Shown here: positions 36,274-53,236 of the stretch, piece by piece
How positions within the stretch are numbered: the first letter of the stretch is position 1
Layout: each line of letters opens with the position of its first letter
NCBI GenBank assembly: GCA_022448945.1
Contig: JAKVCV010000011.1
Location: 62,001-126,000 of the forward strand
DNA length: 64,000 nt
Source: Saprospiraceae bacterium
GTDB taxonomy: Bacteria; Bacteroidota; Bacteroidia; Chitinophagales; Saprospiraceae
Direction: 5' to 3'
Translations under genes and position numbers: made by a program
The notes under the pieces: generated by a model
What the model saw: only the letters and a program-made list of their open reading frames with translations
The model's database searches: none
What the model was told of the DNA's origin: nothing

Positions 36274-36317
36274 TTTAAAACCACTGTAATTAAACATAAT
36301 ATCCCCAGAAAAACTTA

Positions 36318-36339
36318 GTGTCACTTTGACAACAAGTTA
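36318..36339. promoter_or_regulatory. Operator-like element upstream of susC
   Basis: This 22-base element matches the one at 52309-52330 at 17 of 22 positions in the same orientation; the shared form is GTGTNNNTTTGACANNAAG followed by TTA. It contains the inverted repeat TGTCA-CTT-TGACA (36319-36331). It ends 69 bases before the susC start. TCACTTTG inside it resembles a -7 element with one mismatch. Binding by the NrtR-type regulator at 52493 is an inference. Confidence 0.6.
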
Positions 36340-36408
36340 TTTTTCCTTATTTTAGTATTAGTGTAAATACAACTAAAGAAAAAAGGAGGCTTATACAAAT
36401 AAAATAAC

Positions 36409-39400
36409 ATGAAAGAATTTTTCATTTTTCTAATAATCCTGTTATCCTCATCTATATTAGCACAAAACAGTTCAATCAAAGGAATTGTAACAGATACAGA
36501 TGGGATGGGTATTCCGTTAGCAACCATAGTTATTAAGGATACCGAAAAAGTATATCAAACTGATTTCGAAGGAAATTATATTATTAAAGATCTTAAATCG
36601 GGGAAATACACTTTGACATTCTCCTCACTAGGGTCACCAGAAACAATTTTATACGTAGAATTATTAAAAGGAGAACAAAAGGTTTTAGATGTCACTCTTG
36701 GGAATAGCTTACTTGAAGAAATAGTAGTTGTGGGTTATGGCACCAGTCTGAAAAGAGATCTAACAGGTTCCATTTCATCTATAAAATCGGAGGATATAGA
36801 AAATATGCTCTCTCCATCTTTTGACCAGGCTCTTCAAGGCAAAATGGCCGGAGTACAAATCACCTCTGCAAATGGTGTTGCTGGGGGCGGAAATACAAAA
36901 ATTCAAATTAGAGGAAGCAATTCTATCGCTGCAGGAAGTAACCCACTTATCGTTATTGATGGCGTACCAATCTCTAATGAAGATGTAAGTGCAGATGTAA
37001 TGGGAAACGGGGCAAATGGCTTATCTGATATAAATATGGACGACATTGCTTCTATTGACGTCCTAAAAGATGCGTCTGCTGCAGCTATTTATGGTGCACG
37101 AGGTGCCAATGGTGTGATTATTATAACAACTAAGCTAGGAAAGAAAGGTAAAACAAAATTTAATTTTAATGTAAAATCTGGATTCGTCCAAGAAACAAAC
37201 AGATTGAAGGTGCTAAATGCAGCCGAACAACTTTCTTTGAGAGATCAAATAAGCATAGAAAACACAGGTACACCAGAAGCAAAAAACACAGTCTTAGGAA
37301 TCTTTGATGGACAATCTTTTACAAGACAAGATGCTGATGATCATGCCGCTAAAGGAGGCTCAGACTGGATCAACGAAACTTTAAAAACTGGATTTTTTCA
37401 CGAGGCTAACCTTTCTGCTTCATCTGGCACTGAAAAAACAAAGTTATATTTTTCGGGTGCTTACAGAAATGAAGATAGTTTTCTAAAAGGCAATAATTTC
37501 CAAAGAGTCTCAGGAAGATTCAATATGGAAAGTAAAGCACATGAAATTGTTACCTTAGGAGCCAATGCAGGAATTACCTACACAATTAATGATCGTGTAG
37601 CAACAGGAGACAATGGAGGCCTTGGCTGGGCGCAACAAATCCCTACATATATTCCGATATACAATCAGGATGGCACTTTTTTCAATCCTGCTGGAAATCC
37701 AATTTGGTATCTAGAAAATCGCGACTTTAAAGCCAAAAGACTACGTACGCTCGCAAATGTTTTTGCAGGAATAAACCTTCATAAAAAACTTAATTTTCGA
37801 TCTTCTTTTGGACTTGATTTTACCAATCTAAAAGAAGATGAATTTCAAGCAACTAACCCTGCTGCTAATTCTGAAGCATGGGCATGGGAGCGGACTTCAA
37901 ATATATTTAACTGGAATATCAGCAATTACCTTACTTATAGCGATCAATTCAAAGAAGATCATACCTTAAATATAGTATTAGGTAGCGATTATCAAAGAAC
38001 AGATATTAATGGTTTTGGAATTTATGGCTATGGCTTTTCAAATGCTAGTTTCACGAATCCACAACAAGGTGCTGACCAATCCCTTTATTCATACCAAACC
38101 GGGAATGCAATATTATCTTTCTACTCAAGAATCAATTACAAATTTAAAGATAGGTACTTGTTTGGAATAACTGCAAGAGCTGATGGATCTTCCCGGTTTT
38201 CTGACAATTATCGTTATGGATTTTTTCCTTCATTCTCTGCAGGCTGGATTATTACAGATGAAAAATTTATGGAAAACGCTAAAGCACTTAACTTCCTTAA
38301 ACTAAGAGCTAGTTATGGTTTTACGGGCAATGACAATATAGGAGATTTCACCCGCTTTGGTGTATACACTACAGGTATAGGGTATGCCGGAAGCTTAGCA
38401 TTATATCCCTCTACCTTAGCCAACAGTGAATTACGATGGGAAAAAGCACAAATGTTTGATGTTTCAGTAGAATATGGCTTATGGAACAATCGAATCTCTG
38501 GATCTATAACATTCTTTCATAAACAATCATCCGATTTGCTCTTACCAATTCAACTGCCGACTTCCTCAGGGTTTTCAACAATTACTGTAAATGCTGGTTC
38601 AGTTAACAACTGGGGTTGCGAAATTATGCTAAATTCTTATAATATTTCAACCAAAAACTTCAAGTGGAAAACTAATATTAACTTTTCAATTATTCGAAAC
38701 AAAGTTACTGATGTTGCTGGCCTTCCTCCCGATGCATTTGAAAGTGGTCAACCTGGGGAAGGAAGAATTATTGAAGGCTATCCTGTTGGACAATCATTCG
38801 TTGTCAGATATGCAGGCGTACAACAAGAGGATGGTACAATAACTCGATATAATACTGATGGCAGTGTTTTAACAGATGTAAATGGCAACCCAATAACGGT
38901 AAGTGTGAATGCGGGAGAGGCACTTTATTACGACATCAATGGGAATCTAATAGCATTTGGCGTAGACGACAATGGCACTAGTTCAATAAGCACAGATGAT
39001 GTTAACCGTTTTACTGGTTCTGATTTTTACGACAATAGAGTGCCAGTAGGAAATCCAACCCCTGACTTTTTTGCTGGAATTTCCAATACAATAAGTTATA
39101 AATTCATTGAATTAGACTTTCTAGTAAACATGGTGGTAGGTCAAACCATATATGATGATCCAGCTAAGAACCAAATAGGAAATTATAATAGTTTTGCACA
39201 AAGACCTGAAATCCTAAACAGCTGGACTACCGAAAACCAATCCAATGTTCCTGCTTTAAATACCGTTTCTATCCCTGTAAATTCAGATCGTTTTTTATAC
39301 GACGGATCCTATATCCGCCTTCGAAGTTTAACCCTTTCATTTACATTGCCTAAAAAATTGTGTAAGAAAATAAATTTCTCTTCACTAAAAATATATGCTA

Positions 39401-39564
39401 CTGGTTATAATCTTCTTACATGGACTCCTTACCCCGGTTGGGACCCAGAAGTAATGCGGCATGTAGCACAAAATTCTCAACAAGAAAATATTTCATTTTC
39501 AGGCCCTTCATGGCAAACTCCTCAAGCTAGGATTATCATGTTTGGCATTAAAGCTGGATTATAA
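36409..39564 (+). CDS. SusC/RagA family TonB-linked outer-membrane transporter
   Basis: A 1051-residue SusC-type TonB-dependent transporter. Signal peptide: 1-19. A carboxypeptidase-regulatory-like domain covers about 22-98. The TonB box/plug junction is EEIVVVGYGTSLKRDLTGS. The plug continues with IQIRGSNSIAAGSNPLIVIDG and VLKDASAAAIYGARGANG, followed by a long beta barrel. It forms the outer-membrane oligosaccharide import complex with the SusD-like protein two bases downstream. Its substrate is inferred to be alpha-glucan because the opposing cluster consists of GH13 and GH31 enzymes and shares an operator-like element. Confidence 0.95.
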   Translation: MKEFFIFLIILLSSSILAQNSSIKGIVTDTDGMGIPLATIVIKDTEKVYQTDFEGNYIIKDLKSGKYTLTFSSLGSPETILYVELLKGEQKVLDVTLGNSLLEEIVVVGYGTSLKRDLTGSISSIKSEDIENMLSPSFDQALQGKMAGVQITSANGVAGGGNTKIQIRGSNSIAAGSNPLIVIDGVPISNEDVSADVMGNGANGLSDINMDDIASIDVLKDASAAAIYGARGANGVIIITTKLGKKGKTKFNFNVKSGFVQETNRLKVLNAAEQLSLRDQISIENTGTPEAKNTVLGIFDGQSFTRQDADDHAAKGGSDWINETLKTGFFHEANLSASSGTEKTKLYFSGAYRNEDSFLKGNNFQRVSGRFNMESKAHEIVTLGANAGITYTINDRVATGDNGGLGWAQQIPTYIPIYNQDGTFFNPAGNPIWYLENRDFKAKRLRTLANVFAGINLHKKLNFRSSFGLDFTNLKEDEFQATNPAANSEAWAWERTSNIFNWNISNYLTYSDQFKEDHTLNIVLGSDYQRTDINGFGIYGYGFSNASFTNPQQGADQSLYSYQTGNAILSFYSRINYKFKDRYLFGITARADGSSRFSDNYRYGFFPSFSAGWIITDEKFMENAKALNFLKLRASYGFTGNDNIGDFTRFGVYTTGIGYAGSLALYPSTLANSELRWEKAQMFDVSVEYGLWNNRISGSITFFHKQSSDLLLPIQLPTSSGFSTITVNAGSVNNWGCEIMLNSYNISTKNFKWKTNINFSIIRNKVTDVAGLPPDAFESGQPGEGRIIEGYPVGQSFVVRYAGVQQEDGTITRYNTDGSVLTDVNGNPITVSVNAGEALYYDINGNLIAFGVDDNGTSSISTDDVNRFTGSDFYDNRVPVGNPTPDFFAGISNTISYKFIELDFLVNMVVGQTIYDDPAKNQIGNYNSFAQRPEILNSWTTENQSNVPALNTVSIPVNSDRFLYDGSYIRLRSLTLSFTLPKKLCKKINFSSLKIYATGYNLLTWTPYPGWDPEVMRHVAQNSQQENISFSGPSWQTPQARIIMFGIKAGL

Positions 39565-39566
39565 TT

Positions 39567-40997
39567 ATGAGACTTTCAATATGTATTTGCATAGGTATCT
39601 TTTGCGTATTTTCCTGTAGAAAGGCACTAGAAATTAGACCTCAAAACTCACTTTTAAACGAAGTAGCTATAACAACTCCTGCTGATCTTTCAAATGTCGT
39701 AGAAGGCATTTACGATGGGCTACAAAGCGGAATGGTTCTGGGTGGGAATAGGTATATTTATGCAGATTTATTGGCGGATGATGCAGCTGTTATTGAAACA
39801 CAACTAAATGCCTTTGGAACACTAGAAATCTACAATAGAACGATGACCTCGCAAATTAATGATCTTAGAAATATGTGGCGAGATGGTTATTCCGTTATTA
39901 ATAGGGCTAACAATGTAATTAAAGTGATTGACCAAGAAATTTTATCGAATCACGTTGATTACAATCCGACTACATTTACTGTATTTAAAGCTACTGCTCT
40001 TTTTGCCAGAGCTATTGTTCACTTTGAAATGGTTAGATTTTGGGGCAACCCTTATGATGTTGAAACCCCTGGGAATAATACACAATTAGGGATCCCTTAT
40101 AGAAAAGAACCGACTCTTTCTGGCCCAATTGGGCTTGAAATTGCAAGAAATAGTGTAGAAGAAGTATATAATTTCGTGACCAATGATCTAAATGAAGCCA
40201 ATAATATGTTGGATACATTAAGTGATGGATCTTCGTTATACAACGAATGGTATCGACATAAAGTAGATAAATGGGCTGTTAAATCATTGCTGGCCAAAGT
40301 ATATTTTTTTATGGGGAAATACACAGAGGCATCGAATCTGGCAGAAGAAGTTATAAACTCCGGAAGTTTTACCCTCGAAACAAACCCTAGAAATAATTTT
40401 ATAAAAAGTGGGCTTGAAAATAACGATGAGCAAATATTCCAACTAATTAGCATTGCAACAGACCAAAGTGGAAATCCTGCTTGGGGCTATTCCCGATATG
40501 GTTATCCATTACTTACCAGTATAGAATCATCCATGTCTCTATTTCACAATAATGATAAACGGTTAGACAACATTAATGGTTATTTTTATGTTAGTTTTTT
40601 TGGTGATTCAACGATAGCTAAATATGACCTGCCAAATGCAACAAATGGCATCAATATGACCGTACTCAGACTTTCAGAAATGCACCTTATCGCTGCAGAG
40701 TCTAACCTAAGTGCGGGTGGCAATGGAAATAGAACTCGCTCAGAAGAATTATATACAGAATTGTACCAAACTCGCGTAGGTAGCGCACCTGCGATTCCAT
40801 CAACAAATGATAGTCTTAAAACATCCATACAACTTGAAAGACGACTTGAACTTATGTACGAAGGAGATAGATACCACAACCTTAAAAGAATGAAACAACC
40901 CTTAAGAAATGGAGTACCTTATAATGACCCCAGTCTGCTTTTTAGAATACCTCAGGAAGAAATGTCTGGCAATAGCTTAATGGTTCAGAATCCATAA
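39567..40997 (+). CDS. SusD/RagB family glycan-binding lipoprotein
   Basis: A 476-residue SusD-type surface lipoprotein. The leader ends in VFSC with lipid attachment at Cys17. The N-terminal part has the SusD signature DLSNVVEGIYDGLQSG, then helical TPR-like segments (KWAVKSLLAKVYFFMGKYTEASNLAEEVI). The C-terminus has the typical LERRLELMYEGDRYHNLKRM. It acts as the lid and glycan binder of the SusC barrel encoded two bases upstream. It is shorter than many SusD proteins, at the low end of the family. No SusE/SusF gene follows on this strand; the next gene is convergent, 25 bases away. Confidence 0.94.
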   Translation: MRLSICICIGIFCVFSCRKALEIRPQNSLLNEVAITTPADLSNVVEGIYDGLQSGMVLGGNRYIYADLLADDAAVIETQLNAFGTLEIYNRTMTSQINDLRNMWRDGYSVINRANNVIKVIDQEILSNHVDYNPTTFTVFKATALFARAIVHFEMVRFWGNPYDVETPGNNTQLGIPYRKEPTLSGPIGLEIARNSVEEVYNFVTNDLNEANNMLDTLSDGSSLYNEWYRHKVDKWAVKSLLAKVYFFMGKYTEASNLAEEVINSGSFTLETNPRNNFIKSGLENNDEQIFQLISIATDQSGNPAWGYSRYGYPLLTSIESSMSLFHNNDKRLDNINGYFYVSFFGDSTIAKYDLPNATNGINMTVLRLSEMHLIAAESNLSAGGNGNRTRSEELYTELYQTRVGSAPAIPSTNDSLKTSIQLERRLELMYEGDRYHNLKRMKQPLRNGVPYNDPSLLFRIPQEEMSGNSLMVQNP

Positions 40998-41022
40998 AAA
41001 CTAACCTGAGAAGATAAAAACA

Positions 41023-42327
41023 TTAATCTTCTTTAACTCTAAATGTCAAAAAAGCAGCAATAATTAACAATAGACCTCCTAACATCACGCCATACAATCT
41101 ATTATTTCCTAATAGCTGACTCATCACCCATCCAAATCCTAATGCGGCAATAATTTCAGGTAAAACTATAAACATATTAAATAACCCCATGAAAATACCC
41201 ATTTGTTTAGGGGGTATATCTTTGGCAATTAAGACATAAGGGATAGACACAATACTAGCCCATGCAATACCAACTCCCGTCATAGGCAACAATAACAAAT
41301 ACGGATCATGTACAAAATTTATGCTTAATAGGCCCAACCCTCCAGCAATTAAACAACAAAAATGCAATTTAACATTCCCTATTTTTTGCGCAATGGAAGG
41401 CATTATAAGAGCAAATAAAAAAGTAATTACAGAATAATAACCAAAACAAATATTCGCCCAAGCCAAGCCATCAGCATAAAGTGGACTATTGGGATCGGAT
41501 GCGCCAAATACATGCTCACAAATTGTTACGGTCAAATAAAACCACATCAAAAACAAACCTAGCCAAGTAAAAAATTGAACAGGCGCTAATTTTACAAATG
41601 ATTTAGGCATGTTCTTGAAAGCTATTTTCAGTCCCTGAACATACCCTATTGATTCTTCATTTTCATCGGATTCATAAAATTCAGGAGGATATTCTTTTGT
41701 TGTAAAAACAGTATATAACATTGCACCTAAAAAGGCAATGCCCCCAACCAAAAAACTTATTTTTACATAACCAGGAATAGAACCATCAACACTCGTTTTG
41801 TCCATTCCGATTATATTGAGTAAAAACCATGGCATTAAAGCAGCCAAAACAGCTCCAAATCCGATAAAAAAGCTTTGCATAGTATAGCCCTTTGGCAATT
41901 GTTCTTCCGGCAAAATATCTGCAACAAAAGCTCTTGTTGGCTCCATAGAAATATTAATGGACGCATCTAGAACCCAAAGCATTCCAGCTGCCATCCATAT
42001 CGTTGAAGAATAAGGCATGACAACTAAAGCAACAGAAGCTAAAATAGCTCCAATTAAAAAATATGGCCTTCTTCGACCAAAATAAGGATGCCAGGTGCGA
42101 TCACTCATATAACCAATAATGGGTTGTACAATCAATCCTGTCATGGGTGCTGCCAACCACAAAAAAGGAATTTGATCTGGTTCAGCACCCAAAAACTCAT
42201 AGATGGCACTCATGTTCCCCATTTGCAAACCCCACCCAAATTGGATGCCCAAAAACCCAAAGGTCATATTCCAGATTTGCCAAGATGACAAGTTTGGCTT
42301 TTGTTTATTTAAATGTATATCACTCAT
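41023..42327 (-). CDS. SLC45/sucrose-maltose type MFS transporter
   Basis: A 434-residue inner-membrane carrier with about 12 helices. It resembles the SLC45/plant sucrose-transporter branch of the major facilitator superfamily: WNMTFGFLGIQFGWGLQMGN at helix 1 and the loop SDRTWHPYFGRRRPYFLIG between helices 2 and 3. It probably imports maltose or short maltodextrins across the inner membrane. It is the last gene of the alpha-glucan enzyme series, seven bases after the lipoprotein amylase, so co-translation is likely. Confidence 0.9.
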   Translation of the reverse strand: MSDIHLNKQKPNLSSWQIWNMTFGFLGIQFGWGLQMGNMSAIYEFLGAEPDQIPFLWLAAPMTGLIVQPIIGYMSDRTWHPYFGRRRPYFLIGAILASVALVVMPYSSTIWMAAGMLWVLDASINISMEPTRAFVADILPEEQLPKGYTMQSFFIGFGAVLAALMPWFLLNIIGMDKTSVDGSIPGYVKISFLVGGIAFLGAMLYTVFTTKEYPPEFYESDENEESIGYVQGLKIAFKNMPKSFVKLAPVQFFTWLGLFLMWFYLTVTICEHVFGASDPNSPLYADGLAWANICFGYYSVITFLFALIMPSIAQKIGNVKLHFCCLIAGGLGLLSINFVHDPYLLLLPMTGVGIAWASIVSIPYVLIAKDIPPKQMGIFMGLFNMFIVLPEIIAALGFGWVMSQLLGNNRLYGVMLGGLLLIIAAFLTFRVKED

Positions 42328-42334
42328 TTTATTT

Positions 42335-43717
42335 TTATTTAAAAAACACTAAATAGCCCCATGGATCTAGTTCGGCAGAAGCTACTTTACTATTTAAAAT
42401 AGAATTGTCAAACAACTCTTTGAATTCACCTGATAAACTTTCATTATTATATTCAACAGTTCTTGTTTTATTAGAAAAATTGAAAATGCAAAACACCTCA
42501 TTATCTCCTTTGGTTCTGCTAAAGGCAAAGCCAATGGTATCTTCTGGTGGAGACAATAAATTTAAACTGCCTCCGTAATTCCCATTCCATAATGCTTCAT
42601 TATCCTTATTTAACTTCAGCAATGGTTTATAAAATTCCGTCATCGAACAATCCTGCCATTCAATGGGGTCTTTTTCGAAAAACTCTAACCTTTTATCTAA
42701 GCTACATTCTTGCCCATTGTAAATTAAAGGCATCCCCTCCATTGTTGCAGAGAGTACAGCAAAGATTTTAGTCGCATCTCCTAGGCGTTCTTTCACTGTG
42801 CCCTTCCATGAGTTTTCATCATGATTAGAAGTGAAATGTAATCTATATGCATCTTTTTGAAACTTTTTAGCTTTATTACTTAAGTAATTTCTAATATCTT
42901 TAACAGACTTTTTCCCTTCTGCAATTTCATTCATAATAAAATGAAATTCCCAGCCGTAGGACATATCGAAGGCCTTTTTATGATGCTCAGGATTTTCGGC
43001 CTCTGCCAGCATGAAGACGGGTTTGACCTTATCGAGTTCGGCCCTTGCTTCGTTCCAAAAATCGATAGGAACCCAATCGGCAACATCACAGCGATAACCA
43101 TCTATGTCACATTCTCTAACCCAAAAAGCAAGTGCATCAATCATAGCAGCCCTCATATCCGAATTTTCATAATTCAAATCAGCAACGTCCCACCAGTCTG
43201 TACCAATCGGCGGCTGTAGATTACCTGTAGAGTCTAAGGTATACCAATCCTTATGGCTTTCCTCAACCCAAACATTATCAAAAGCAGTGTGATTTGCTAC
43301 CCAATCTATAATTACATGCATTCCTAAATTGTGCGCTTCTTTAACCAATGCTTTAAAATCTTCAATTGTCCCATAATCTGCATGGACGGCTTTATAATCT
43401 TTTACAGAATAGTAACTGCCCTCCGTTCCTTTTCTGTTTTTTTGACCGATCGGATGTATTGGCATAAACCAAAGTATATCTATACCAAGATCTTTAATAC
43501 GTTTTAAATCTTTTTGAAAAGCCTTAAATGTACCTTCTTTACTATATTGACGTATGTTAACTTCATACATAGTAGCATTTTTAGACCATTCTGGCACCGT
43601 TTTAACATAAGTTGCTTTAGCATCCTCTTTGGATACTCCATTATTTACTAGATCCTTATTTTCGCAAGAAAAAAAGAAAAATACAATATAGAATATCAAA
43701 TAATATATATATTTCAT
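42335..43717 (-). CDS. GH13 alpha-amylase family lipoprotein
   Basis: A 460-residue GH13 enzyme. The leader ends in FFSC with lipid attachment at Cys18. The catalytic triad is visible as nucleophile Asp211 (GYRCDVADW), acid/base Glu239 (MLAEAEN) and stabiliser Asp300 (TSNHDENSW); the first conserved block is DWVANHTA. It has no extra carbohydrate-binding module, and ends with a short C-terminal beta domain. It probably trims maltodextrins in the periplasm or at the membrane. It follows the larger GH13 gene by two bases. Confidence 0.93.
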   Translation of the reverse strand: MKYIYYLIFYIVFFFFSCENKDLVNNGVSKEDAKATYVKTVPEWSKNATMYEVNIRQYSKEGTFKAFQKDLKRIKDLGIDILWFMPIHPIGQKNRKGTEGSYYSVKDYKAVHADYGTIEDFKALVKEAHNLGMHVIIDWVANHTAFDNVWVEESHKDWYTLDSTGNLQPPIGTDWWDVADLNYENSDMRAAMIDALAFWVRECDIDGYRCDVADWVPIDFWNEARAELDKVKPVFMLAEAENPEHHKKAFDMSYGWEFHFIMNEIAEGKKSVKDIRNYLSNKAKKFQKDAYRLHFTSNHDENSWKGTVKERLGDATKIFAVLSATMEGMPLIYNGQECSLDKRLEFFEKDPIEWQDCSMTEFYKPLLKLNKDNEALWNGNYGGSLNLLSPPEDTIGFAFSRTKGDNEVFCIFNFSNKTRTVEYNNESLSGEFKELFDNSILNSKVASAELDPWGYLVFFK

Positions 43718-43719
43718 AA

Positions 43720-45990
43720 CTAATAATTTAGTAAGGTTTTATACGAATAAGCAGTAAGATTATATGTTTTATTATTTATTTTAACTTGTTGGTTATCCGC
43801 AGAATTATTTAATATAACAAGAGTGGATTCACTCATATATTTACGACTATAGGCATAAACCTTATCTGATACATATTCAGTTTTAAAAGAGCCATACATT
43901 AGGGACATTCTTTTTTTTCTCAGCCTAACCAACTCCTTAGTGTTATCTAAAACAGATTGTTCATGGCTTGACAAAGAATCAAATTTCATAGGTTTTCGAT
44001 TATCAGGGTCACCAGCACCGGGCATACCTATTTCATCTCCATAATAAATTACCGGGACTCCTGGAGCAGTCATTATAAATGCTGTTAATAATTTTAATTT
44101 TGCATAACCAATTGTGTCCTCAACGACAATTTCTCTTGTCCAGCCAGCCATCTTATCATCCTCAGAAAATTTTAGGGATTTACCAGCATAACTTATAAAT
44201 CTTGCAATATCATGATTGCCGGTTATATTGCCCATCAATGTACTTGTACCATAATATTGAATAGATGTATGTACCGATTCGTCCAATTGTTTAAAAGAGC
44301 TATTGTCACGAGCCAAAACAGATCTTAAATCAAAATAAAGGTTAAAGTCAAACTGCCCATCCATCTGACCAGAACCAACATAACTTCCTATAAGTTCACG
44401 ACTGCCAAAGGTCTCTCCTATCTGATAAACAGCTCTTTTACAATTTTTTTTAATTTTTTTAGTCAACGCCCTCCAATAAGCTTCTGGTATATGTTTAGTC
44501 GCATCATGACGAAATCCATCAAGGTTATAATGTTCTAACATAAAAAAAGCGGAATCAGAGATTGTTTTAATTACTTCAGGTATTGAAAAATCAAGTGTAG
44601 GTAAAAACAGATCAAACCATGTTGTAAGTCTATGTTCATCCCAAAGTCTAATATTCTTTCTTCCATCTTCAAGGATTAATTTTGTCTGCCACTCTGGGTG
44701 GTCTCTAATAATGGGATTTTCGTCATGGACATGATTCGATACATAATCGAGAATTACATTTATTTTTTGATCGTGGGCAGTTTTTACAAGTGTTTTTAAA
44801 TCAGCCTCTTTCCCAAGTCGATTATCAATTTGAGTTAAAGAAATAGGCCAATAACCATGGTAACCAGAATATTTGCGATGAGGTGCTGGATATTCAATCT
44901 CTGCATGCAATGGATTTTGAGTTATTGGAGAAAGCCAAATGGTATTAACCCCTAAACTTTTAAAATAGCCTTCTTCTAGCTTTTCTAATATCCCTTTGAT
45001 ATCGCCTCCGTAATAATTAGCCTTTGTATCAACATCAGGATCAGATAATGGTTCATCATTCATATGGTTCCCATTATGGAACCTATCAACCAACATGAAA
45101 TATAATATATTTGCATGTTTATCATTCCTAGATAATAATTCAGGGTCAACAATAACCTCTCCGTAATGTAATGGAAGCATAAAATCATTAACATTTCCAT
45201 TGTCATCTGAATACCAAACCCTTATGTGCGATCGTTGTCTATCTTTTGCAATTGCAGGAATTTTATAATTGTAAGCATCTGTTAATTGCGGCTGAAGTTC
45301 AAAATTCTCCCATAACACTATTGGTTTAGCTTTAAAGTTCATGAAATCAAACGAAATACTGTTCTCTTTGACATGAGTATTGCATGACACATCACTACTT
45401 CTTACTAATCTACCGACATTAAGTAATGAATTAAGACCTCCGTTGCCATTATCTATAGTCAATTTGTTTGACGCATCGATTTGCCACTCATCATCGAAAA
45501 CTAATTGATATTGATATTTCCCTGGAGTTAAATTCAATTTCAATGACCAAGAATTTTCTCCATCTTTTGTAAACATTTGAGGACTCCAATTGTTCATATC
45601 CCCCGCTAATTCTACTTTTTGTGCTTTTGAATTAAGACGAAAGACAATAGATTCTTTTTTAGACTTAAAACAGACTAAATCATAACGAATGCCATTATCC
45701 CAACAATTAAGTATAGATATATTCGGGGCTGTATCGGAAGCAACAATTTGAATTGTTCGTTCATTAAGTTCAGCAGAAAACCCACTAGAAATTCTTATGG
45801 AATCGAGATGATTGCTTTCAGAAAAGTAATCCTCAATTACAACTTCATGTGCAGTTGAATTCATGCGAATCACAGAAGCTAAACCTACTATAGAAGCACC
45901 TTCATAGTTAGCACTAAGATCTAAACTCTTTTCTTGATTGCAACTGAGATGCAAAAGCAACACTACAAATATTAAAAAACATCTTACCAT
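43720..45990 (-). CDS. GH13 cyclomaltodextrinase/neopullulanase-like lipoprotein
   Basis: A 756-residue GH13 enzyme. The leader ends in HLSC with lipid attachment at Cys17. Residues about 113-190 form a CBM48-like glycogen-binding module (VELAGDMNNWSPQMF, PGKYQYQLVFDDEWQ). A second beta domain precedes the catalytic barrel. Catalytic residues are Asp496 (GFRHDATKH), Glu526 (QIGETFG) and Asp594 (TGNHD). This layout fits SusA-type neopullulanase or cyclomaltodextrinase. The start overlaps the GH31 stop by seven bases (ATGGTAA), which implies coupled translation. Confidence 0.92.
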   Translation of the reverse strand: MVRCFLIFVVLLLHLSCNQEKSLDLSANYEGASIVGLASVIRMNSTAHEVVIEDYFSESNHLDSIRISSGFSAELNERTIQIVASDTAPNISILNCWDNGIRYDLVCFKSKKESIVFRLNSKAQKVELAGDMNNWSPQMFTKDGENSWSLKLNLTPGKYQYQLVFDDEWQIDASNKLTIDNGNGGLNSLLNVGRLVRSSDVSCNTHVKENSISFDFMNFKAKPIVLWENFELQPQLTDAYNYKIPAIAKDRQRSHIRVWYSDDNGNVNDFMLPLHYGEVIVDPELLSRNDKHANILYFMLVDRFHNGNHMNDEPLSDPDVDTKANYYGGDIKGILEKLEEGYFKSLGVNTIWLSPITQNPLHAEIEYPAPHRKYSGYHGYWPISLTQIDNRLGKEADLKTLVKTAHDQKINVILDYVSNHVHDENPIIRDHPEWQTKLILEDGRKNIRLWDEHRLTTWFDLFLPTLDFSIPEVIKTISDSAFFMLEHYNLDGFRHDATKHIPEAYWRALTKKIKKNCKRAVYQIGETFGSRELIGSYVGSGQMDGQFDFNLYFDLRSVLARDNSSFKQLDESVHTSIQYYGTSTLMGNITGNHDIARFISYAGKSLKFSEDDKMAGWTREIVVEDTIGYAKLKLLTAFIMTAPGVPVIYYGDEIGMPGAGDPDNRKPMKFDSLSSHEQSVLDNTKELVRLRKKRMSLMYGSFKTEYVSDKVYAYSRKYMSESTLVILNNSADNQQVKINNKTYNLTAYSYKTLLNY

Positions 45991-48365
45991 CTTAATTTTA
46001 TTTCATCAGCAACATATTCGAACTCTAAACAAGAAAGATCCTCTTCTTTCATCTCCTGTCCGTTTTGGGTGCTAAATATATCTATAGATTCAATTGGTTC
46101 AACAAATCTATTATTCATAGTATATACTTTGCAATCAATACCATTTAAAGTGACATTGGCAGGATTTATTCCATGAAAAACAATCTTAATAACTCTAATT
46201 GAAGATTGGTAGTCCCCAATTGATTTTGAGAAATGCAAACATCCATCACTGTACATTATTTTTCGCAAACTGTATACACCTCGCTCATAGTCATGGGTAA
46301 TACCATCATCCTCATAAAACTGAATATATCCATTGGCTTTTGCATAGACATGAAGCGTCAATTCATCACTCTTTTTATCAAGATTTTGACAAAGCTTCTG
46401 CGTTGGAATAATGGCGCCAGCTTTTACAAAAACGGGCAATTTCCACAATGGCGCCTCAAATATTATCTCCTTATTGCCCTCAAATAGCTCTCCTGTCCAA
46501 AAACAAAACCAATTTCCTTTGGGCAACCAAACTTTTACAAATTCTTTAGTGCTTTCCAAGGGGCATATCATCAAATGATTTCCAAGAAAAAATTGATTTT
46601 GAAACTTTTCTTGATACGTATTTTCATCGAGAGGAAAATCAAAAACCAAGGAACGATTAACAGGGATTCCAGTAACTGCAGACTCTCTGAATAAACTATA
46701 AATCAATGGCATTAATTTATATCTTAACCCAATATAGTTTCTAGCAATTTGTTCTACTAATTCACCAAAACACCAAGGTTCAGCATCTCGAGAATTAACA
46801 ACTGTATGCGCCCTAAAAAAGGGCTGAAAAGCTGCAATAGTAATCCATCGTGCATATAGCTCTGGCGATGCATCCCCTGCAAATCCTCCAGCATCATTTC
46901 CACAAAACGAAACACCAGTTAAACCCAAACTATTTACAAGCCTTACTCCAGCAAGAAGATGTTCGTCCGAAGATATGTTATCTCCTGTCCAAACAGCTGA
47001 AAAACGTTGAATTCCAGAAAAGCCTGCTCTAGTCAACACAAATGGTCTTTCACCAGGTTGATTCTCAATTAAACCTTCTGCTGTGGCTCGTGCCATCTGC
47101 ATACCATATACGTTTCTAGCTTCTCGATGCGTTGTTTTATCACCATCGAAATCAAACTCAATAAAATTGGGGATACACTGTCCCCAAACTGCAGGTTCAT
47201 TCATGTCATTCCAAAAACCCTTAACCCCAAGGTCACTATAAAAAGGCAAAAGATTTTTCCACCATTCCCTAGCGTTATTTGAAGTGAAATCGGGGAAATG
47301 ACTTCTCCCAGACCAAACTTCCCCTATATAATTTTCTCCATCAGGATACTTTAAAAATACATCTTTTTTAATGCCAGAATCATAAGGACCATACCCATCC
47401 TCCACTTTTATGCCAGGATCCAATATGACAGCAGTTTTAAATCCAGATTTGCGAATATCAGATATCATTTGCATTGGAAAAGGGAAGCGCTCCTTATCAA
47501 AGGTAAATGACTTATAGGCATCCATATAATGAATATCAAGATACAAAACATCACAAGGAATTTGTTTAGCCCTAAATGTTTGAGCCAATTGATAAATCTC
47601 ATCATCAGGATAATAACTATATCTACATTGCTGAAAACCCAAAGACCAAAGTGGTGGCATTTTCATTCTTCCCGTAAGCCAGGTATAGTGTTGTATTACT
47701 TCTGCAACTGTATCACCATGAATAAAATAATAATTCATTTCACCATCCTCAGCAGAGAACCATGAAAATCGCTCCGTGGATGCACCAAAATTAAAAACAG
47801 TTTTATAACTATTGTCTACAAAAACTCCATAAAACATTCCATTATGTATTCCTATATAGAATGGCGTAGAAAGATATAATGGATCCTGATCTATTGCATA
47901 TCCAAATTTATCCGTATTCCAATTAACGTAAGCATTGCCTCTTCGGTTTAAAGGTCCTGTCTTCTCACCCAATCCAACAAACTTTTCACCTTCTAGCAAT
48001 TCCTTTGAAACAACTACCTCTGTACCTAACCATCTTACAGCAAGACCATCTTTACTTATAAGTTTATCTTGAAGATCAAATATTGCAATTTTCCCATTCT
48101 CTATATTTAATTCTACCTTAAGTTTATCAGAGTTGAACTTTAATACCTGATCATCTTTTGTATACGATGTATGGACATTTTCAGGACTACTAATAACAGC
48201 ATAAGAATGTTTGTTGTTTATTTCATCTTTTGAAAGAACCACATTAAGAACCGAACTTCTATAATAAGTAAGTTGACCATAGGCATTACCTGAATTATAC
48301 CTCACACAATCGTCTTTTACAGAAATTTGATTGATATGTCCAAAAGTTTCAGATATTTTACCCAT
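45984..48365 (-). CDS. GH31 alpha-glucosidase
   Basis: A 793-residue GH31 enzyme. The nucleophile is Asp387 in FWNDMNEP and the acid/base Asp462 in WTGDNISS. The N-terminal beta-sandwich domain and a C-terminal beta domain ending in a short tail flank the barrel. No signal peptide or lipobox is visible (it starts MGKISETFGHINQ), so unlike its SusB-like counterparts it is probably cytoplasmic and hydrolyses maltose and dextrins after import. A terminator hairpin lies between this gene and the upstream amylase, so it may have its own promoter. Confidence 0.94.
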   Translation of the reverse strand: MGKISETFGHINQISVKDDCVRYNSGNAYGQLTYYRSSVLNVVLSKDEINNKHSYAVISSPENVHTSYTKDDQVLKFNSDKLKVELNIENGKIAIFDLQDKLISKDGLAVRWLGTEVVVSKELLEGEKFVGLGEKTGPLNRRGNAYVNWNTDKFGYAIDQDPLYLSTPFYIGIHNGMFYGVFVDNSYKTVFNFGASTERFSWFSAEDGEMNYYFIHGDTVAEVIQHYTWLTGRMKMPPLWSLGFQQCRYSYYPDDEIYQLAQTFRAKQIPCDVLYLDIHYMDAYKSFTFDKERFPFPMQMISDIRKSGFKTAVILDPGIKVEDGYGPYDSGIKKDVFLKYPDGENYIGEVWSGRSHFPDFTSNNAREWWKNLLPFYSDLGVKGFWNDMNEPAVWGQCIPNFIEFDFDGDKTTHREARNVYGMQMARATAEGLIENQPGERPFVLTRAGFSGIQRFSAVWTGDNISSDEHLLAGVRLVNSLGLTGVSFCGNDAGGFAGDASPELYARWITIAAFQPFFRAHTVVNSRDAEPWCFGELVEQIARNYIGLRYKLMPLIYSLFRESAVTGIPVNRSLVFDFPLDENTYQEKFQNQFFLGNHLMICPLESTKEFVKVWLPKGNWFCFWTGELFEGNKEIIFEAPLWKLPVFVKAGAIIPTQKLCQNLDKKSDELTLHVYAKANGYIQFYEDDGITHDYERGVYSLRKIMYSDGCLHFSKSIGDYQSSIRVIKIVFHGINPANVTLNGIDCKVYTMNNRFVEPIESIDIFSTQNGQEMKEEDLSCLEFEYVADEIKLRW

Positions 48366-48404
48366 AAAAAAAAATTAAAGGATTGGAAAAAGCATGGTGA
48401 CTAA

Positions 48405-48439
48405 AAAGAGTAGGATGTAACAAAACAAACCTACTCCTT
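48405..48439 (-). terminator. Terminator on the minus strand inside the glucan enzyme series
   Basis: On the minus strand AAGGAGTAGG (48439-48430) pairs with CCTACTCTTT (48414-48405) at nine of ten positions around a 15-base loop, followed by TTTTTAG. It can end the transcript of the T9SS amylase. TAGGTTTG on the minus strand (48433-48426) fits the -7 consensus and overlaps the stem; it could start a separate transcript for the GH31 gene, but no TTTG partner is seen. Confidence 0.65.
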
Positions 48440-48463
48440 CTAAAATAAATAACTTCTATTTTA

Positions 48464-51328
48464 TTAATTAATTTTAAGAATGGTATTTACAGATACATTA
48501 ACTCCATGAACAAGTTTATAAAAATAAACTCCATTGGGTGCCCTGCTCTGGCCTATATTCCCATCCCATTTAACGCTATATTCTCCTGCCGTTTGAAATT
48601 GGCTTACAAGGGTCTTTAAAAGTGTCCCTTTGATATCATAAATATAAACACTTAAATCACCATCTGCAGGTAATATGTAGGAAATAGTTACTTCTTTATT
48701 AAATGGAATTGGAGAAGCATTTGAAATAATTGTATTTTCTGGTCCTGTTAACTTTTTGTTTACATCAACAGTCAAATCTGGAGTATTCAATTTTACATTT
48801 GTATAAATATGAAAATCACCTGGTCCCAAAGGAATAGGGCTGTTTACATCTACAACATTAATAGTATCCCCAGAAAGGTAGTCAAACCAATAGCCAGTTT
48901 GTTGAAATCCTGGCATCATTGTATTTAATGAATCTACACCAAAATTACCTATAACAGTAACATTCATAGAAGGATCTGTAACCCAAAGACGTTTACCATC
49001 GCCTCCTACATCCATATCATAGTTTGCAGAACGAAATGCAATGTTTTCAGTTTTCAATTTAATTAAGGCCGCAAATGTTTTATATAGATGAAGACGATTG
49101 GCATCCTGAAGATAATTCCACCTCAAAGGTTTTTCTTTTGTTCTGCCATTAAAATTAATAGAGAAATCATATCCAATCTCCCCAAATTGCCATAGCATTT
49201 TCGGTCCAGGCACTGTATAAAAGAAAGCCGCACAAGCTTCTATTCTCTTTAGAGCTGTAGGCACTTCACGTATATTATAAATAGTATCTCCAATAATGTC
49301 AATATTAAAATTACCATATTCAGCACATTCATACATTATTCTTTCTTCATCATGCGACTCCATATAACCAACAAGATGTTGATACGGCCAACCTCTATGT
49401 TTCGAAGAAACATGCCAGCTAAAATCAGAACCACTTGAATAGCCAATTGCAGACTGTTTATATTGTGAATTAGCATTTCCCCATAACATAAACCCATGAT
49501 TAGATAATTCTAACTCCTCAGAATTATCAGCAAAGTGCTCTAAAATCATATAACAATCACTATCAAAGGTTCTCACCTGATCAAAAATTCTTTTAAGCCA
49601 ATAAACCCTATCACTATCGTAATTAGACCATAAGCCCAAATTAGATGGATAACTATATACTTGTGTAAATCCTTTAGACAAATCAAACCGAAATCCGTCA
49701 ACTTTATATTCTGAAAGCCAATAGTGTAAGCATCTATCAACAAAGTACTGAGTTTCAATTGTTGAATGGTCAAAATCGCTATTAAATCCAAAGGGATGAG
49801 GTATATAAGAATTAAACCAAGGGTTATCATTTGTAGGTTTTCCCGAGTTCTTATCCATATATAGTCTTGCCATAGTATTCTGACTAAATGCATGGTTAAA
49901 TACAACATCTAATATGACTGCTATTCCACGTGTATGACATTCATCAATAAATCTTTTTAAGTCTCCTTTAGGTCCATAAAACTTATCAGGTGCGAAATAA
50001 AAAGCGGGGGAATACCCCCAACTCTTATTATCATCAAACTCATTTATAGGCATTAATTCAATGGCATTAATTCCTAAGTTTTGAAGATAATCAAGCGTAT
50101 CAATTAACGTAGTGTAATCATGTCTCAAAACAAAATCTCTAATCAACAATTCATAGATAACCAAATCCTGGTTAGCAGGCCTTACAAAAGAAGTGTTTTG
50201 CCATGAAAATGGAGTTTGTGCAGGTTGAAAAACAGAAACCATCCCATGTGTTTTTCCAGTAGGATAACTGATTAAACCTGGATAAGTAAAGAAAAAAATA
50301 TTGACATCATTAAATTCATCTAAATACTTATCGGCCCAAGGGTCAGCAATTACAACATCTTGATCGACAACATATTGAAAACGATATTCCTGGCCAGGAT
50401 TAAGACCTGTTAACTCAATCCAAAATGCTGTTCCATCAGTAGTTTGTTTCATCCGATATGAAGGATCAATTTTCCAATCATTAAAATCTCCTATTACATT
50501 AACAAAAGATTTATTAGGAGCATACAACTGCAATAAAACAGTAGAGTCATTTACATAATTAATACCATTCATTGAAGCAAACGGCGGGTCTTGAATTACA
50601 GTAGGTTCATCAACAATATAATAAATCGAATCCGTTATTATAGAACTCCCATCATTTGCCTCAAGTTTTAGCCAATGGATTCCAGGGTTATTTGCAACAA
50701 CAGAAGAAATCAGATTTGTATTTGAGCTATTCTGTAAAATTAATTGACCATCATGATAAAATTTTATCTGAGAATTAATGTTAGCTAATATTTCGATATT
50801 AACTGTATCATTTAAATCAACTCTATATGCATTAGTTAAAGGTTCAAAAAAGAAAGCATCAAATGAATTGCTTTTAAATACAGGAATAAAAATATCTGAA
50901 TTGTCGGTATTTTTCCCAGCAAGAGAACCATCTTGATTCCTAAAAACAAAAGCTATAGCATTATAATCAATTTGAGAGTTATAACCATAAAAAGTTGAAG
51001 GCTTAATTTTTATTTTATGTAAACCTCCTCCAATATTTTGCATTGTAACAATTGTATCATTTATAACCAAATCAGGATCTCCTGTAGGCCAAGGATTAAT
51101 TCGATGCTTCCAATCAGCATTAGATAAACTATTTTCAGATATCAAGCCAGTATGCATATATACTGTATTTACACCTGCTAAAGCACCATTCCCCGCAGCA
51201 GCATTAAAAACAATTTCTAATGAATCTTGCATTATAGGATAAGCAGGGGTATAAGTAACTACCTGAGCAATTAAGTTAGTTATTAAAGATAGACTTAAAA
51301 TGAGGATAAATATGAATTTATGAAACAT
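48464..51328 (-). CDS. T9SS-secreted multidomain GH13 alpha-amylase
   Basis: A 954-residue secreted amylase. Signal peptide: 1-21. Residues about 50-150 form a domain (VYMHTG...FVFRNQDGSLAG) shared with the small protein encoded upstream. A CBM48-like module follows at about 263-350 (FVNVIGDFNDWKI). The GH13 barrel has nucleophile Asp549 (GFRFDLSKG), acid/base Glu597 (MILEHFAD) and Asp660 (MESHDEER). The C-terminal domain is a T9SS sorting domain of the FlgD-like type (SPIPFNKEVTISY, APNGVYFYKLVHG). It probably is the surface-exposed enzyme that first cuts starch, taking the place of SusG. Confidence 0.94.
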   Translation of the reverse strand: MFHKFIFILILSLSLITNLIAQVVTYTPAYPIMQDSLEIVFNAAAGNGALAGVNTVYMHTGLISENSLSNADWKHRINPWPTGDPDLVINDTIVTMQNIGGGLHKIKIKPSTFYGYNSQIDYNAIAFVFRNQDGSLAGKNTDNSDIFIPVFKSNSFDAFFFEPLTNAYRVDLNDTVNIEILANINSQIKFYHDGQLILQNSSNTNLISSVVANNPGIHWLKLEANDGSSIITDSIYYIVDEPTVIQDPPFASMNGINYVNDSTVLLQLYAPNKSFVNVIGDFNDWKIDPSYRMKQTTDGTAFWIELTGLNPGQEYRFQYVVDQDVVIADPWADKYLDEFNDVNIFFFTYPGLISYPTGKTHGMVSVFQPAQTPFSWQNTSFVRPANQDLVIYELLIRDFVLRHDYTTLIDTLDYLQNLGINAIELMPINEFDDNKSWGYSPAFYFAPDKFYGPKGDLKRFIDECHTRGIAVILDVVFNHAFSQNTMARLYMDKNSGKPTNDNPWFNSYIPHPFGFNSDFDHSTIETQYFVDRCLHYWLSEYKVDGFRFDLSKGFTQVYSYPSNLGLWSNYDSDRVYWLKRIFDQVRTFDSDCYMILEHFADNSEELELSNHGFMLWGNANSQYKQSAIGYSSGSDFSWHVSSKHRGWPYQHLVGYMESHDEERIMYECAEYGNFNIDIIGDTIYNIREVPTALKRIEACAAFFYTVPGPKMLWQFGEIGYDFSINFNGRTKEKPLRWNYLQDANRLHLYKTFAALIKLKTENIAFRSANYDMDVGGDGKRLWVTDPSMNVTVIGNFGVDSLNTMMPGFQQTGYWFDYLSGDTINVVDVNSPIPLGPGDFHIYTNVKLNTPDLTVDVNKKLTGPENTIISNASPIPFNKEVTISYILPADGDLSVYIYDIKGTLLKTLVSQFQTAGEYSVKWDGNIGQSRAPNGVYFYKLVHGVNVSVNTILKIN

Positions 51329-51340
51329 CTTGCCAAACTT

Positions 51341-52234
51341 TTATTGTTTTATAATTACTTCGAATTTCGAAGATTTCCCATTACTAATTATAGCATAGTA
51401 TGCTCCTTGTTGAACTTCACTTCCCAAATCAGACTTGCCATCCCATAATATTGTATACACTCCAGAATCCATATCACCATAATATAAAGTTCTAATCTTT
51501 TGACCAAGTGTATTATAGATTGAGAAGTCTACACCCTTGGCAGTTTTGGGCACATGATAAGTAAATTTAATTTGGTTAGTAAAAGGATTAGGATAAGCAG
51601 TTTCAAATGAAACATTTACAACTTCTCTTACAGACGTAGGATTTAAACTATTATTGACACTAAAAACCGTATCAGGAAGTGTAAACCCTGGTAATCCAAC
51701 ATCAACATTTGTGTTTCCTTGATGTAAATTAAAAACAAAAAAATCTGTGCATCCACCGGTTATACCTCCAATAGTTCCATCTTCATTTCTAAAAACAAAT
51801 CCCATTGAGTATGCACTTGCTCCCATAGGCTTGGGTGTAGAGGCACCTGCTGACCCTTGACCAGTTTGACTAATTGTAGCAGGGTTGCTATAGAAAGTGT
51901 CTACATCAATATAGATATCCCAAATACTATCAAGCTGTTCAGTCATTAGGCCAAAACCATTATCTTGGCCCCAATCTCCAACAACATGTTCCCAGACGTA
52001 TGTTGGATCCTGACAATCCATGGAATCAGGAACATTGGGTGTTGTTGCAGAACAAACTCCAGAATGAATATACATTTTGTAGTTTGCAGTATTAGGCTCT
52101 AAAACACAACCGGTAATATTAGCAGCATCATTCTTATGGTTTTTAAGATCCAACGATATGTGTATAACTTGTGCAAAGTTTTGGGTGGTGCATAATAAAC
52201 AAATAACAATGATAATTAGGAAAATTTTACTCAT
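51341..52234 (-). CDS. Small T9SS-secreted protein sharing the amylase N-terminal domain
   Basis: A 297-residue secreted protein. Signal peptide: 1-22. Residues about 50-170 match residues 50-150 of the downstream amylase: MYIHSG against MYMHTG, DVDTFYSNP against KPSTFYGYN, and GFVFRNEDGTIGG against AFVFRNQDGSLAG. The C-terminal part is a T9SS sorting domain (AYPNPFTNQIKFTYHVP, QQGAYYAIISNGKSSKFEVIIKQ). In effect it is the amylase without its catalytic core. It is the first gene of the minus-strand series, 12 bases before the amylase, where SusE/SusF-type starch-binding proteins would be expected. A starch-binding role is an inference. Confidence 0.85.
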   Translation of the reverse strand: MSKIFLIIIVICLLCTTQNFAQVIHISLDLKNHKNDAANITGCVLEPNTANYKMYIHSGVCSATTPNVPDSMDCQDPTYVWEHVVGDWGQDNGFGLMTEQLDSIWDIYIDVDTFYSNPATISQTGQGSAGASTPKPMGASAYSMGFVFRNEDGTIGGITGGCTDFFVFNLHQGNTNVDVGLPGFTLPDTVFSVNNSLNPTSVREVVNVSFETAYPNPFTNQIKFTYHVPKTAKGVDFSIYNTLGQKIRTLYYGDMDSGVYTILWDGKSDLGSEVQQGAYYAIISNGKSSKFEVIIKQ

Positions 52235-52308
52235 GATTTACTGATTTTAACTTCAAAAAAACAAAGAATTAGCTGTTATCCCAATATAACATAAAAGCGT
52301 AATTATAG

Positions 52309-52330
52309 GTGTATATTTGACACTAAGTTA
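52309..52330. promoter_or_regulatory. Operator-like element between the amylase series and its regulator
   Basis: This element matches the one upstream of susC (36318-36339) at 17 of 22 positions. The inverted repeat is GTGTAT-ATT-TGACAC (52309-52323), followed by TAAG. TATATTTG at 52312-52319 inside it fits a plus-strand -7 promoter box for the regulator gene. It lies 75 bases upstream of the first gene of the minus-strand series, so one bound protein could control both directions. Confidence 0.6.
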
Positions 52331-52458
52331 CGTGTTTTATCTTTAATATGAAATTTATTCTAGTCTTTTTGACAAATCAACTTGTTTGCCTTTTAGCAAC
52401 AAAATAGAAATCCTATCAATACATTCAAATTCCTAATAAAAAACCATATATTAGCTTC

Positions 52459-52477
52459 GTGTTACCATAACACTAAG
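52459..52477. promoter_or_regulatory. Second operator-like palindrome next to the regulator start
   Basis: GTGTTA-CCA-TAACAC (52459-52473) is a perfect inverted repeat with a three-base spacer, followed by TAAG as in the element at 52309. It lies 15 bases before the regulator ATG, a position suited to autorepression. Confidence 0.55.
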
Positions 52478-52492
52478 AATAAAACAAGGCCA

Positions 52493-53236
52493 ATGATTAA
52501 AAAAAAACAACAATTAAACCCTTATATATCGGTGGACTGTGTAATATTCGGCTTTGATTCTGACCGACTAAAAGTATTACTTATTGAGCGAGAAGATCAT
52601 TCTCTAAACACTGAGTCGACACTTGCACTCCCAGGGGATTTGATAAATAATGAAGAAAACCTAAATGAATCAGCAAACAGAGTGCTTAAAGAACTAACAG
52701 GCCTTAAAAATATATACCTTAAACAAATAGGAGCCTTTGGAGATTTAAATAGAATTTCAAAAAAAGATGATAAAGCATGGCTGCAAACCGTACGTACAAA
52801 TCCAGAAGCAAGAGTTATAACCATTGCATATTATTCGCTTGTTAAAATTTCTGACTCCAATCCCAAGGCATCTTCTTTTGCGACTTCAGCCAAATGGTAT
52901 AATGTCGAGGAAATAAAAGCACTTGCTTTTGATCATTATGATATACTTAGAGCTGCTCTTAGTCAATTGAGAAATGAAATAATACATCAACCAGTTGGAT
53001 TTAATTTAATGCCTAAAATGTTTACATTAGGCCAGCTTCAAAAAATGTACGAGGCCATTTTGAACAAAAAACTAGATAAAAGAAATTTTAGACGAAAAAT
53101 ACTAAAGCTTAACATACTAGACGCAACTCAAGAAAAAGAAACAGGTGTCTCTCACAAACCTGCACAATATTTTGTTTTCAACAAAAAAAATTATAATTCA
53201 CTAGCAGACACAGGATTTAATAACTTTGGTTTTTAA
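52493..53236 (+). CDS. Nudix-derived transcriptional regulator (NrtR family)
   Basis: A 247-residue NrtR-type regulator: an N-terminal Nudix fold (about 10-150) and a C-terminal winged helix (about 165-235, with MPKMFTLGQLQKMYEAIL and KRNFRRKILKLNIL). The Nudix box is degenerate: the first glycine is Asp49 in LPGDL and the metal-binding REUxEE core reads RVLKEL (63-68), so it should not hydrolyse nucleotides. Sugar-responsive members of this family with lost Nudix activity are known in Bacteroides (AraR). It is divergent from the amylase series and flanked by two operator-like palindromes, so it is the likely local regulator. Confidence 0.88.
   Translation: MIKKKQQLNPYISVDCVIFGFDSDRLKVLLIEREDHSLNTESTLALPGDLINNEENLNESANRVLKELTGLKNIYLKQIGAFGDLNRISKKDDKAWLQTVRTNPEARVITIAYYSLVKISDSNPKASSFATSAKWYNVEEIKALAFDHYDILRAALSQLRNEIIHQPVGFNLMPKMFTLGQLQKMYEAILNKKLDKRNFRRKILKLNILDATQEKETGVSHKPAQYFVFNKKNYNSLADTGFNNFGF

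Follow-up and report, generated by a model that had tools for sequence, protein, structure and literature searches.

The window analyzed here, a 64-kb stretch belonging to a 4.35-Mb assembly (73 contigs) of a Saprospiraceae bacterium, carries an alpha-glucan locus with three copies of a palindromic element. Site A lies before susC, and sites B and C lie between an amylase operon and the gene of an AraR-like regulator of the NrtR family. On sequence comparison we judge it probable, at about 0.82, that the three sites are operators of this regulator. The features concerned, numbered within the window, are as follows:

36314–36336, candidate operator site A, CTTAGTGTCACTTTGACAACAAG; 2 mismatches to the 23-bp consensus, centre 84 bp 5′ of the susC ATG
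36325–36328, TTTG of site A, 19 bp 5′ of the −7-like TATTTTAG (36348–36355)
36409–39564, plus strand, susC, SusC/RagA TonB-linked receptor (TIGR04056, Pfam), predicted target of A
39567–40997, plus strand, susD-like protein (Pfam), second gene 3′ of A
41023–52234, minus strand, run of six glucan genes, MFS/GH13/GH13/GH31/GH13/type IX secretion system (T9SS)-FlgD_ig protein, transcribed away from B
52305–52327, candidate operator site B, ATAGGTGTATATTTGACACTAAG; centre 82 bp 5′ of the ATG of the amylase run (minus strand)
52455–52477, candidate operator site C, CTTCGTGTTACCATAACACTAAG; 1 mismatch to the consensus, pairing at 9 of 10 half-site positions; centre 27 bp 5′ of the regulator ATG
52493–53236, plus strand, AraR-like NrtR-family regulator with a decayed Nudix sensor bearing a 15-residue insert and an NrtR_WHD/AraR_C winged helix

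The complete element is a palindrome of 23 bp, CTTAGTGTYA-N3-TRACACTAAG, composed of 10-base half-sites. Its core, GTGT-N7-ACAC, is exact at B and C and one letter off at A; at B the right half (TGACACTAAG) is perfect and the left half keeps GTGT. An original prediction, made from the window alone, had reported that 36318–36339 (GTGTCACTTTGACAACAAGTTA) and 52309–52330 (GTGTATATTTGACACTAAGTTA) agree at 17 of 22 positions in the same orientation, that 69 bases separate the former from the susC ATG at 36409, and that a perfect palindrome lies near the regulator gene. A recount gave the same figures, and the palindrome is located at 52459–52473 (GTGTTACCATAACAC, 6+3+6 bases). The palindromic plan then proposed is thus real, but it was drawn shorter than the true extent of the half-sites, and the arms of B are imperfect.

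The promoter consensus of Bacteroidota consists of TTTG, about 19 bp, and TAnnTTTG, with TTTGACA as a −33 box. As the TTTG of site A stands 19 bp before TATTTTAG, A probably lies over a −33 box; the TTTG of site B is found 18 bp 5′ of TATCTTTA on the plus strand. It had been claimed that two of the sites cover a −7-like box. In this regard, TATATTTG in B does fit TAnnTTTG, and TCACTTTG in A departs from it by one letter, but the spacing favours their TTTG as a −33 element. The placement of −7 boxes was rejected as a proof of mechanism, since no more than a weak clustering of such boxes was seen downstream of the sites.

The regulator at 52493–53236 showed Pfam matches to NUDIX (5.9e-6), NrtR_WHD (1e-25), and AraR_C (1.7e-13). 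Its best solved relative is BtAraR (PDB 5bs6, E 3.9e-44); it also matches 3gz5 (E 6.7e-16), which together with 3gz6 we take to be the NrtR protein of S. oneidensis. The Nudix box reads RVLKELTGL, so that two glutamates of REUXEEXGU are lost; this is the Nudix signature, and two or three of its glutamates are substituted in AraR proteins (excerpts of PMC4666351). The recognition helix, LDKRNFRRK, is close to the MDKRNFRKR of AraR. In BtAraR, K179, R180, N181, and K184 together with residues of the wing make the contacts that define GTGT, the BtAraR operator is AAAGTGTTACTTTTACACCC, and the crystallised operator contains GTGTTACTTTTACAC, which has the spacing of B and C (excerpts of PMC4666351). 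When these residues were aligned, K179, R180, and N181 were found to be kept and K184 to be replaced by R, with the wing less alike (K204-R205 to H-K). An assignment as an NAD-type NrtR orthologue was discarded (NCBIfam NF050029, 130.6 bits vs. a cut-off of 400). Given that glucan genes adjoin it and that its sensor carries a 15-residue insert missing from AraR, neither was the regulator assigned as an orthologue of the L-arabinose regulator AraR. An AlphaFold model built from two sequences had a mean pLDDT of 34.7 and was not used, and the insert was therefore placed by alignment only.

The insert, of about 15 residues, occurs in ten proteins that match the pattern D..W[LM]...R (L003, L004, L005, L006, L082, L104–L107, and L229). 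A quick tree of 56 rows, from which L007 was excluded, grouped the insert proteins in one branch (SH-aLRT 97) that also includes the long-branched L121, in which the insert pattern is not matched. The clade looks uncommon: at E ≤ 1e-65 it was found in 2 of 395 genomes of the phylum, the present one included (the other being that of L229). The scan of genome contigs gave a single locus, in Cryomorpha ignava, and no relatives of the regulator were found in viral contigs.

The evidence that carries the operator assignment comes from relatives. A matrix was built from 49 sites of other genomes, excluding those of the present genome, and on the window it placed C (25.9 bits), A (23.5 bits), and B (18.2 bits) as the top three, followed by a match of 13.8 bits within an open reading frame (ORF). 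No match as good as B appeared in 150 simulated 64-kb sequences. A second matrix, from six sites upstream of regulator orthologues, with one of the near-copy pair L105/L106 used, ranked C, B, and A from 1 to 3, with 0, 0.15, and 0.34 matches expected by chance, respectively. Given that the training sites of the matrices had been found with window-derived patterns, a blind repeat test was added. In it, 4096 inverted repeats (256 tetramers by 16 spacings) were sought upstream of 8 orthologues more than 50% identical to the regulator, with the window excluded, L106 left out as a near-copy of L105, and L007 dropped because its regulator lies at a contig end with no upstream sequence. The winner was GTGT-N7-ACAC, present in 7 of 8 orthologues within 310 bp and in 6 of 8 within 250 bp, and the next-best signal reached 3 of 8. 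In addition, 39 aligned sites of relatives, chosen by similarity, keep both arms, with G7 and C17 invariant.

In the genome itself the motif is rare. At 3 mismatches or fewer, the 23-mer matched only A and C in the 4.35 Mb, with 0 matches in the reversed control and 0 in 100 shuffles of the window. It must be noted that this consensus was derived from the window's own sites, which is partly circular, and therefore the point of the scan is that nothing else matches. The shorter GTGTN5TRACACTAAG is found exactly only at B and C, and its places with one mismatch, other than A, B, and C, are two, both within ORFs. A looser pattern gave four further places, also all within ORFs. A sequence model, R1, was made from 39 of the 49 matrix sites (omitting L100, L036, L038, L042, L047, L053, L055, L058, L138, and L163); the omissions are mostly sites without a sugar neighbour, and R1 is thus biased to sugar-linked sites. 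The whole-genome scan with a sequence model from relatives gave seven distinct places among the 150 of 4156 first-look candidates that were scored, namely A, B, C, and four others, three of which lie within ORFs; for the fourth (C21:17780) no ORF start was found nearby. Since the remaining places are within ORFs or lack a gene start, the good matches directly 5′ of genes among the own-genome places found are the three window sites.

Two simpler measures were discarded as evidence. An agreement of 17/22 by itself is reached by 291 pairs of 22-mers when ORFs of at least 120 amino acids are set aside. The bare core, GTGT-N7-ACAC, occurs 24 times in the genome vs. 23 in the reversed control, without enrichment, and is therefore uninformative by itself; 15 of the 24 places were inspected. 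Two of the 24 fall inside the 258-bp gap 5′ of the regulator (Poisson ~1e-6, for a gap picked post hoc).

The genes that stand beside the motif in relatives point to sugar metabolism. The family scan, which covered 199 genomes (the present one included) at up to 2 mismatches, found 39 places outside the own genome vs. 7 in the reversed control, and 2 of the 39 (L037 and L059) vs. 7 of the 7 control places lie within ORFs (Fisher 7e-7). For three (L033, L098, and L101), no gene starts within 400 bp. A sugar, glycolytic, or Sus-type gene, as judged by Pfam, follows within 400 bp at 23 of the 39 places (including L051, L088, and L096), as a raw count. The gene types comprise SusC, SusE/F, GH13, GH57, CBM48/AMPK1_CBM, phosphoenolpyruvate carboxykinase (PEPCK), cofactor-independent phosphoglycerate mutase (iPGM), class-II aldolase, PfkB-type kinase, and MGS-like. 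Three of the 23 assignments rest on DUF4961, which in L096 occurs together with an amylase domain, and three on a HAD gene followed by GH65 (L089, L090, and L097). The site of L089 is flanked on one side by an NrtR-family gene and on the other by HAD, GH65, GH13, and MFS genes in a run. Of the stretches fetched, 6 of the 39 with a site contained an NrtR-family gene vs. 0 of the 22 controls (7 of 7 from the family scan and 15 of 20 from the looser pattern), the site stretches being longer.

The looser pattern was applied to 11 genomes, i.e., the own genome, eight with an insert-type orthologue, G005 (regulator at a contig end), and G057 (no insert), and gave 57 places vs. 20 in the control. In genomes with the insert type the motif stands 5′ of genes for phosphofructokinase (PFK; L063, L082, and, from the phylum scan, L229), glyceraldehyde-3-phosphate dehydrogenase (GAPDH; L136 and L162), pyruvate kinase (L145 and L185), PEPCK (L172), a branching-enzyme-like GH13 (L161), MFS (L158), SusC (L157 and L184), and amylases (L166 and L167). 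Cryomorpha ignava (G443) had ten places vs. 2 in the control: in the gap between PFK and the regulator, and at SusC, MFS, GAPDH, branching-enzyme-like, glutamate dehydrogenase, and aminotransferase genes, at two small proteins, and once within an ORF. From their neighbours, the cousins of the regulator in relatives appear to control starch use and glycolysis. The motif was also seen 5′ of two related genes whose products begin MILIADSGSTK... (L062 8840–9694 and L187 2060–2926); they have no Pfam match and by eye resemble the BadF/N-acetylglucosamine-kinase type.

Taken together, the domains, the AraR operator geometry, the recognition helix, the repeats upstream of orthologues, and the genes of relatives back the suggestion of the original prediction that the shared element is the binding site of this regulator and co-ordinates the two arms of the glucan locus. 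By analogy with the BtAraR-DNA structure, a regulator dimer would dock on the 23-bp palindrome with one winged helix in the major groove at each GTGT/ACAC arm. Bound at A, it would mask the −33 region of the susCD promoter; at B it would sit on the promoter region that serves the divergent amylase/MFS genes, and at C on the start of its own gene, where autoregulation is expected. Most likely the regulator represses until its decayed Nudix domain takes up a sugar derived from the imported alpha-glucan (maltose, glucose, or a phosphorylated form), upon which the winged helices would turn away from the DNA, an effect that L-arabinose has on AraR. We infer the binding, the direction of control, the effector, and the autoregulation, and repression relieved by an alpha-glucan sugar is the simplest reading.

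Several observations weigh against this interpretation. Five of the 20 consensus positions are not matched by site B, each of them in the left half, and 4 of its 6 inner-arm positions pair; the better fit of the TTTG as a −33 element is likewise a weak point of the interpretation first given. Upstream of orthologue L104 no GTGT-N7-ACAC was found in 310 bp, and that of L107 lies 301 bp upstream. Palindromicity alone, upstream of the orthologues, was not above shuffles for most of them and was discarded as a measure. At one mismatch GTGTN5TRACACTAAG gave 4+2 places vs. 4+5 in the control, which is no excess. The model scan, limited to the 150 candidates scored, yielded no significant place (best E 0.36), and two within-ORF places slightly outscore A, B, and C. 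Among the family-scan places, 16 of 39 have no Pfam-supported sugar neighbour, with L042, L053, and L100 lying outside the Pfam scan. With the looser pattern, 12 of 49 scored places vs. 10 of 15 in the control lie within ORFs. Places 5′ of GntR, Lrp, nicotinate phosphoribosyltransferase, and pantothenate-kinase genes do not suit a sugar regulon. A search of the 8 other genomes of the genus at E ≤ 1e-150 gave no orthologue of this susC. Related NrtR-family proteins may also read the same operator, and the sites in genomes without an orthologue of the window type may be theirs.

A second NrtR-family protein is encoded in the own genome (G000:C1:522640–523296; L077 9605–10318), with an intact Nudix box and the helix LNRRNFRSK; no motif match under 6 mismatches was found within 400 bp upstream of its gene. 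Upstream of its relative in the same genus, L030, stands the palindrome CTTAGTTTATTCACTAAACTAAG, a GTTT form of the operator that carries CTTAGTTT...AAACTAAG. At L036 1297–1319 (genome G151), CTTAGTTTCATATTAAAACTAAG is centred 15 bp 5′ of a nicotinate phosphoribosyltransferase gene. It is possible that the L036 site is a GTTT-type operator of an NAD-linked NrtR, one letter per half-site off the sugar type. As for the other neighbours, 33087–36209, just upstream of A, encodes a chitinase-like GH18 protein that has two CUB stretches and a T9SS tail, and 53955–55703 encodes a PETase-like/alpha-beta hydrolase with a T9SS sorting tail that adjoins a TetR-type regulator (53365–53958).

Other explanations of the shared element have to be considered. 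It could reflect similar promoters, with TTTGACA as a −33 box and no operator, as the distance of 19 bp (A) and 18 bp (B) between TTTG and the −7-like boxes would suggest. Nevertheless, C is a palindrome without TTTG, the similarity-chosen sites of relatives conserve both arms, −7-like boxes cluster weakly downstream, and the places are scarce in genomes, in contrast to promoters, so that we find this explanation improbable. A slightly smaller chance is given to another protein acting at the sites, either the TetR-type protein or the second NrtR-family protein; both are present in the genome, and paralogues within a family can have operators in common. Against it, the second NrtR differs in its intact Nudix box and its helix, lacks the motif upstream, and has a same-genus relative with the GTTT version; the repeat accompanies orthologues of the window regulator, and no link to the TetR protein was found, without a search aimed at one. 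Chance similarity in AT-rich DNA would account for the 291 pairs and for the core count of 24 vs. 23, but the relatives-only matrix ranks these three sites first with no equal in the simulated windows, and the repeat recurs upstream of the orthologues. Genome rarity, matrix, and orthologue tests oppose chance for A and C, and we regard it as very improbable.

A more serious rival accepts the sites as operators and takes the regulator to be an activator, or to act in both directions, in the manner of Cra/CggR and with a glycolytic intermediate as its signal. Dual control of the Cra pattern is conceivable because, in relatives, both glycolytic genes (PFK, GAPDH, pyruvate kinase, iPGM, and fructose-bisphosphate aldolase) and ATP-PEPCK, which works in the opposite direction, bear the motif. 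The positions of A at a −33 region and of C 27 bp 5′ of the ATG are, however, repressor-like, and AraR with bound sugar loses its DNA affinity, after which the operon rises (excerpts of PMC4666351). We consider this alternative unlikely on balance, and yet well ahead of the previous three, and we retain repression by the AraR-like regulator as the preferred reading.

With respect to known systems, the closest is BtAraR (BT0354 of Bacteroides thetaiotaomicron; PDB 5bs6/5dd4/5ddg/5deq), which shares a Nudix-like sensor without catalytic glutamates, the winged helix, the DKRNFR helix, the GTGT-N7-ACAC operator, and several operators in one sugar-use regulon. The window regulator differs in its 15-residue insert, its alpha-glucan locus, and the CTTA/TAAG flanks of its operator. 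BtXylR (BT0791), likened by description only, is a predicted Bacteroides sugar regulator, and AraR and XylR of Bacteroides are both listed under the NrtR family (excerpts of PMC3878776); unlike the window regulator, it is predicted for xylose. NrtR proper has the same two-domain architecture but acts on NAD genes with a nucleotide effector, ADP-ribose (excerpts of PMC4666351). SusR, of the B. thetaiotaomicron starch locus, is comparable in its SusCD-type starch genes and responds to maltose (excerpts of PMC3878776). It differs from the window regulator in being an activator of another protein family. Cra/FruR and CggR control glycolysis and PEPCK genes as a set and belong to protein families unrelated to the window regulator; the motif of relatives suggests a similar joint control of glycolysis and PEPCK genes.

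The type of operator and the protein fold are therefore already known from AraR. What is new is the clade with the 15-residue insert and, in relatives, the operator 5′ of PFK, GAPDH, pyruvate kinase, PEPCK, amylase, maltose-phosphorylase-type, and susC genes. A literature search, which covered few subscription journals, did not find an NrtR-family regulator of maltose, starch, or glycolysis among the matches listed. A wider proposal, to which we give somewhat less than even odds, is that the proteins with the insert act as a Nudix-derived master regulator of glucose metabolism in some of the Bacteroidota, with an AraR-type fold in the role of Cra/CggR. One operator code would then serve glycolysis (PFK, GAPDH, and pyruvate kinase), PEPCK, glycogen, maltose, and SusCD genes, with sensing through a remodelled Nudix pocket, and in the own genome the regulon would have dwindled to one self-contained starch locus.

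The best-known starch locus of Bacteroidota is under SusR, an activator of another family, and an AraR-like, Nudix-derived regulator with a readable operator is a testable alternative to it. In addition, the operator found in relatives is a candidate answer to how polysaccharide import and glycolysis are coupled, in a regulon that can be read from the genome sequence.

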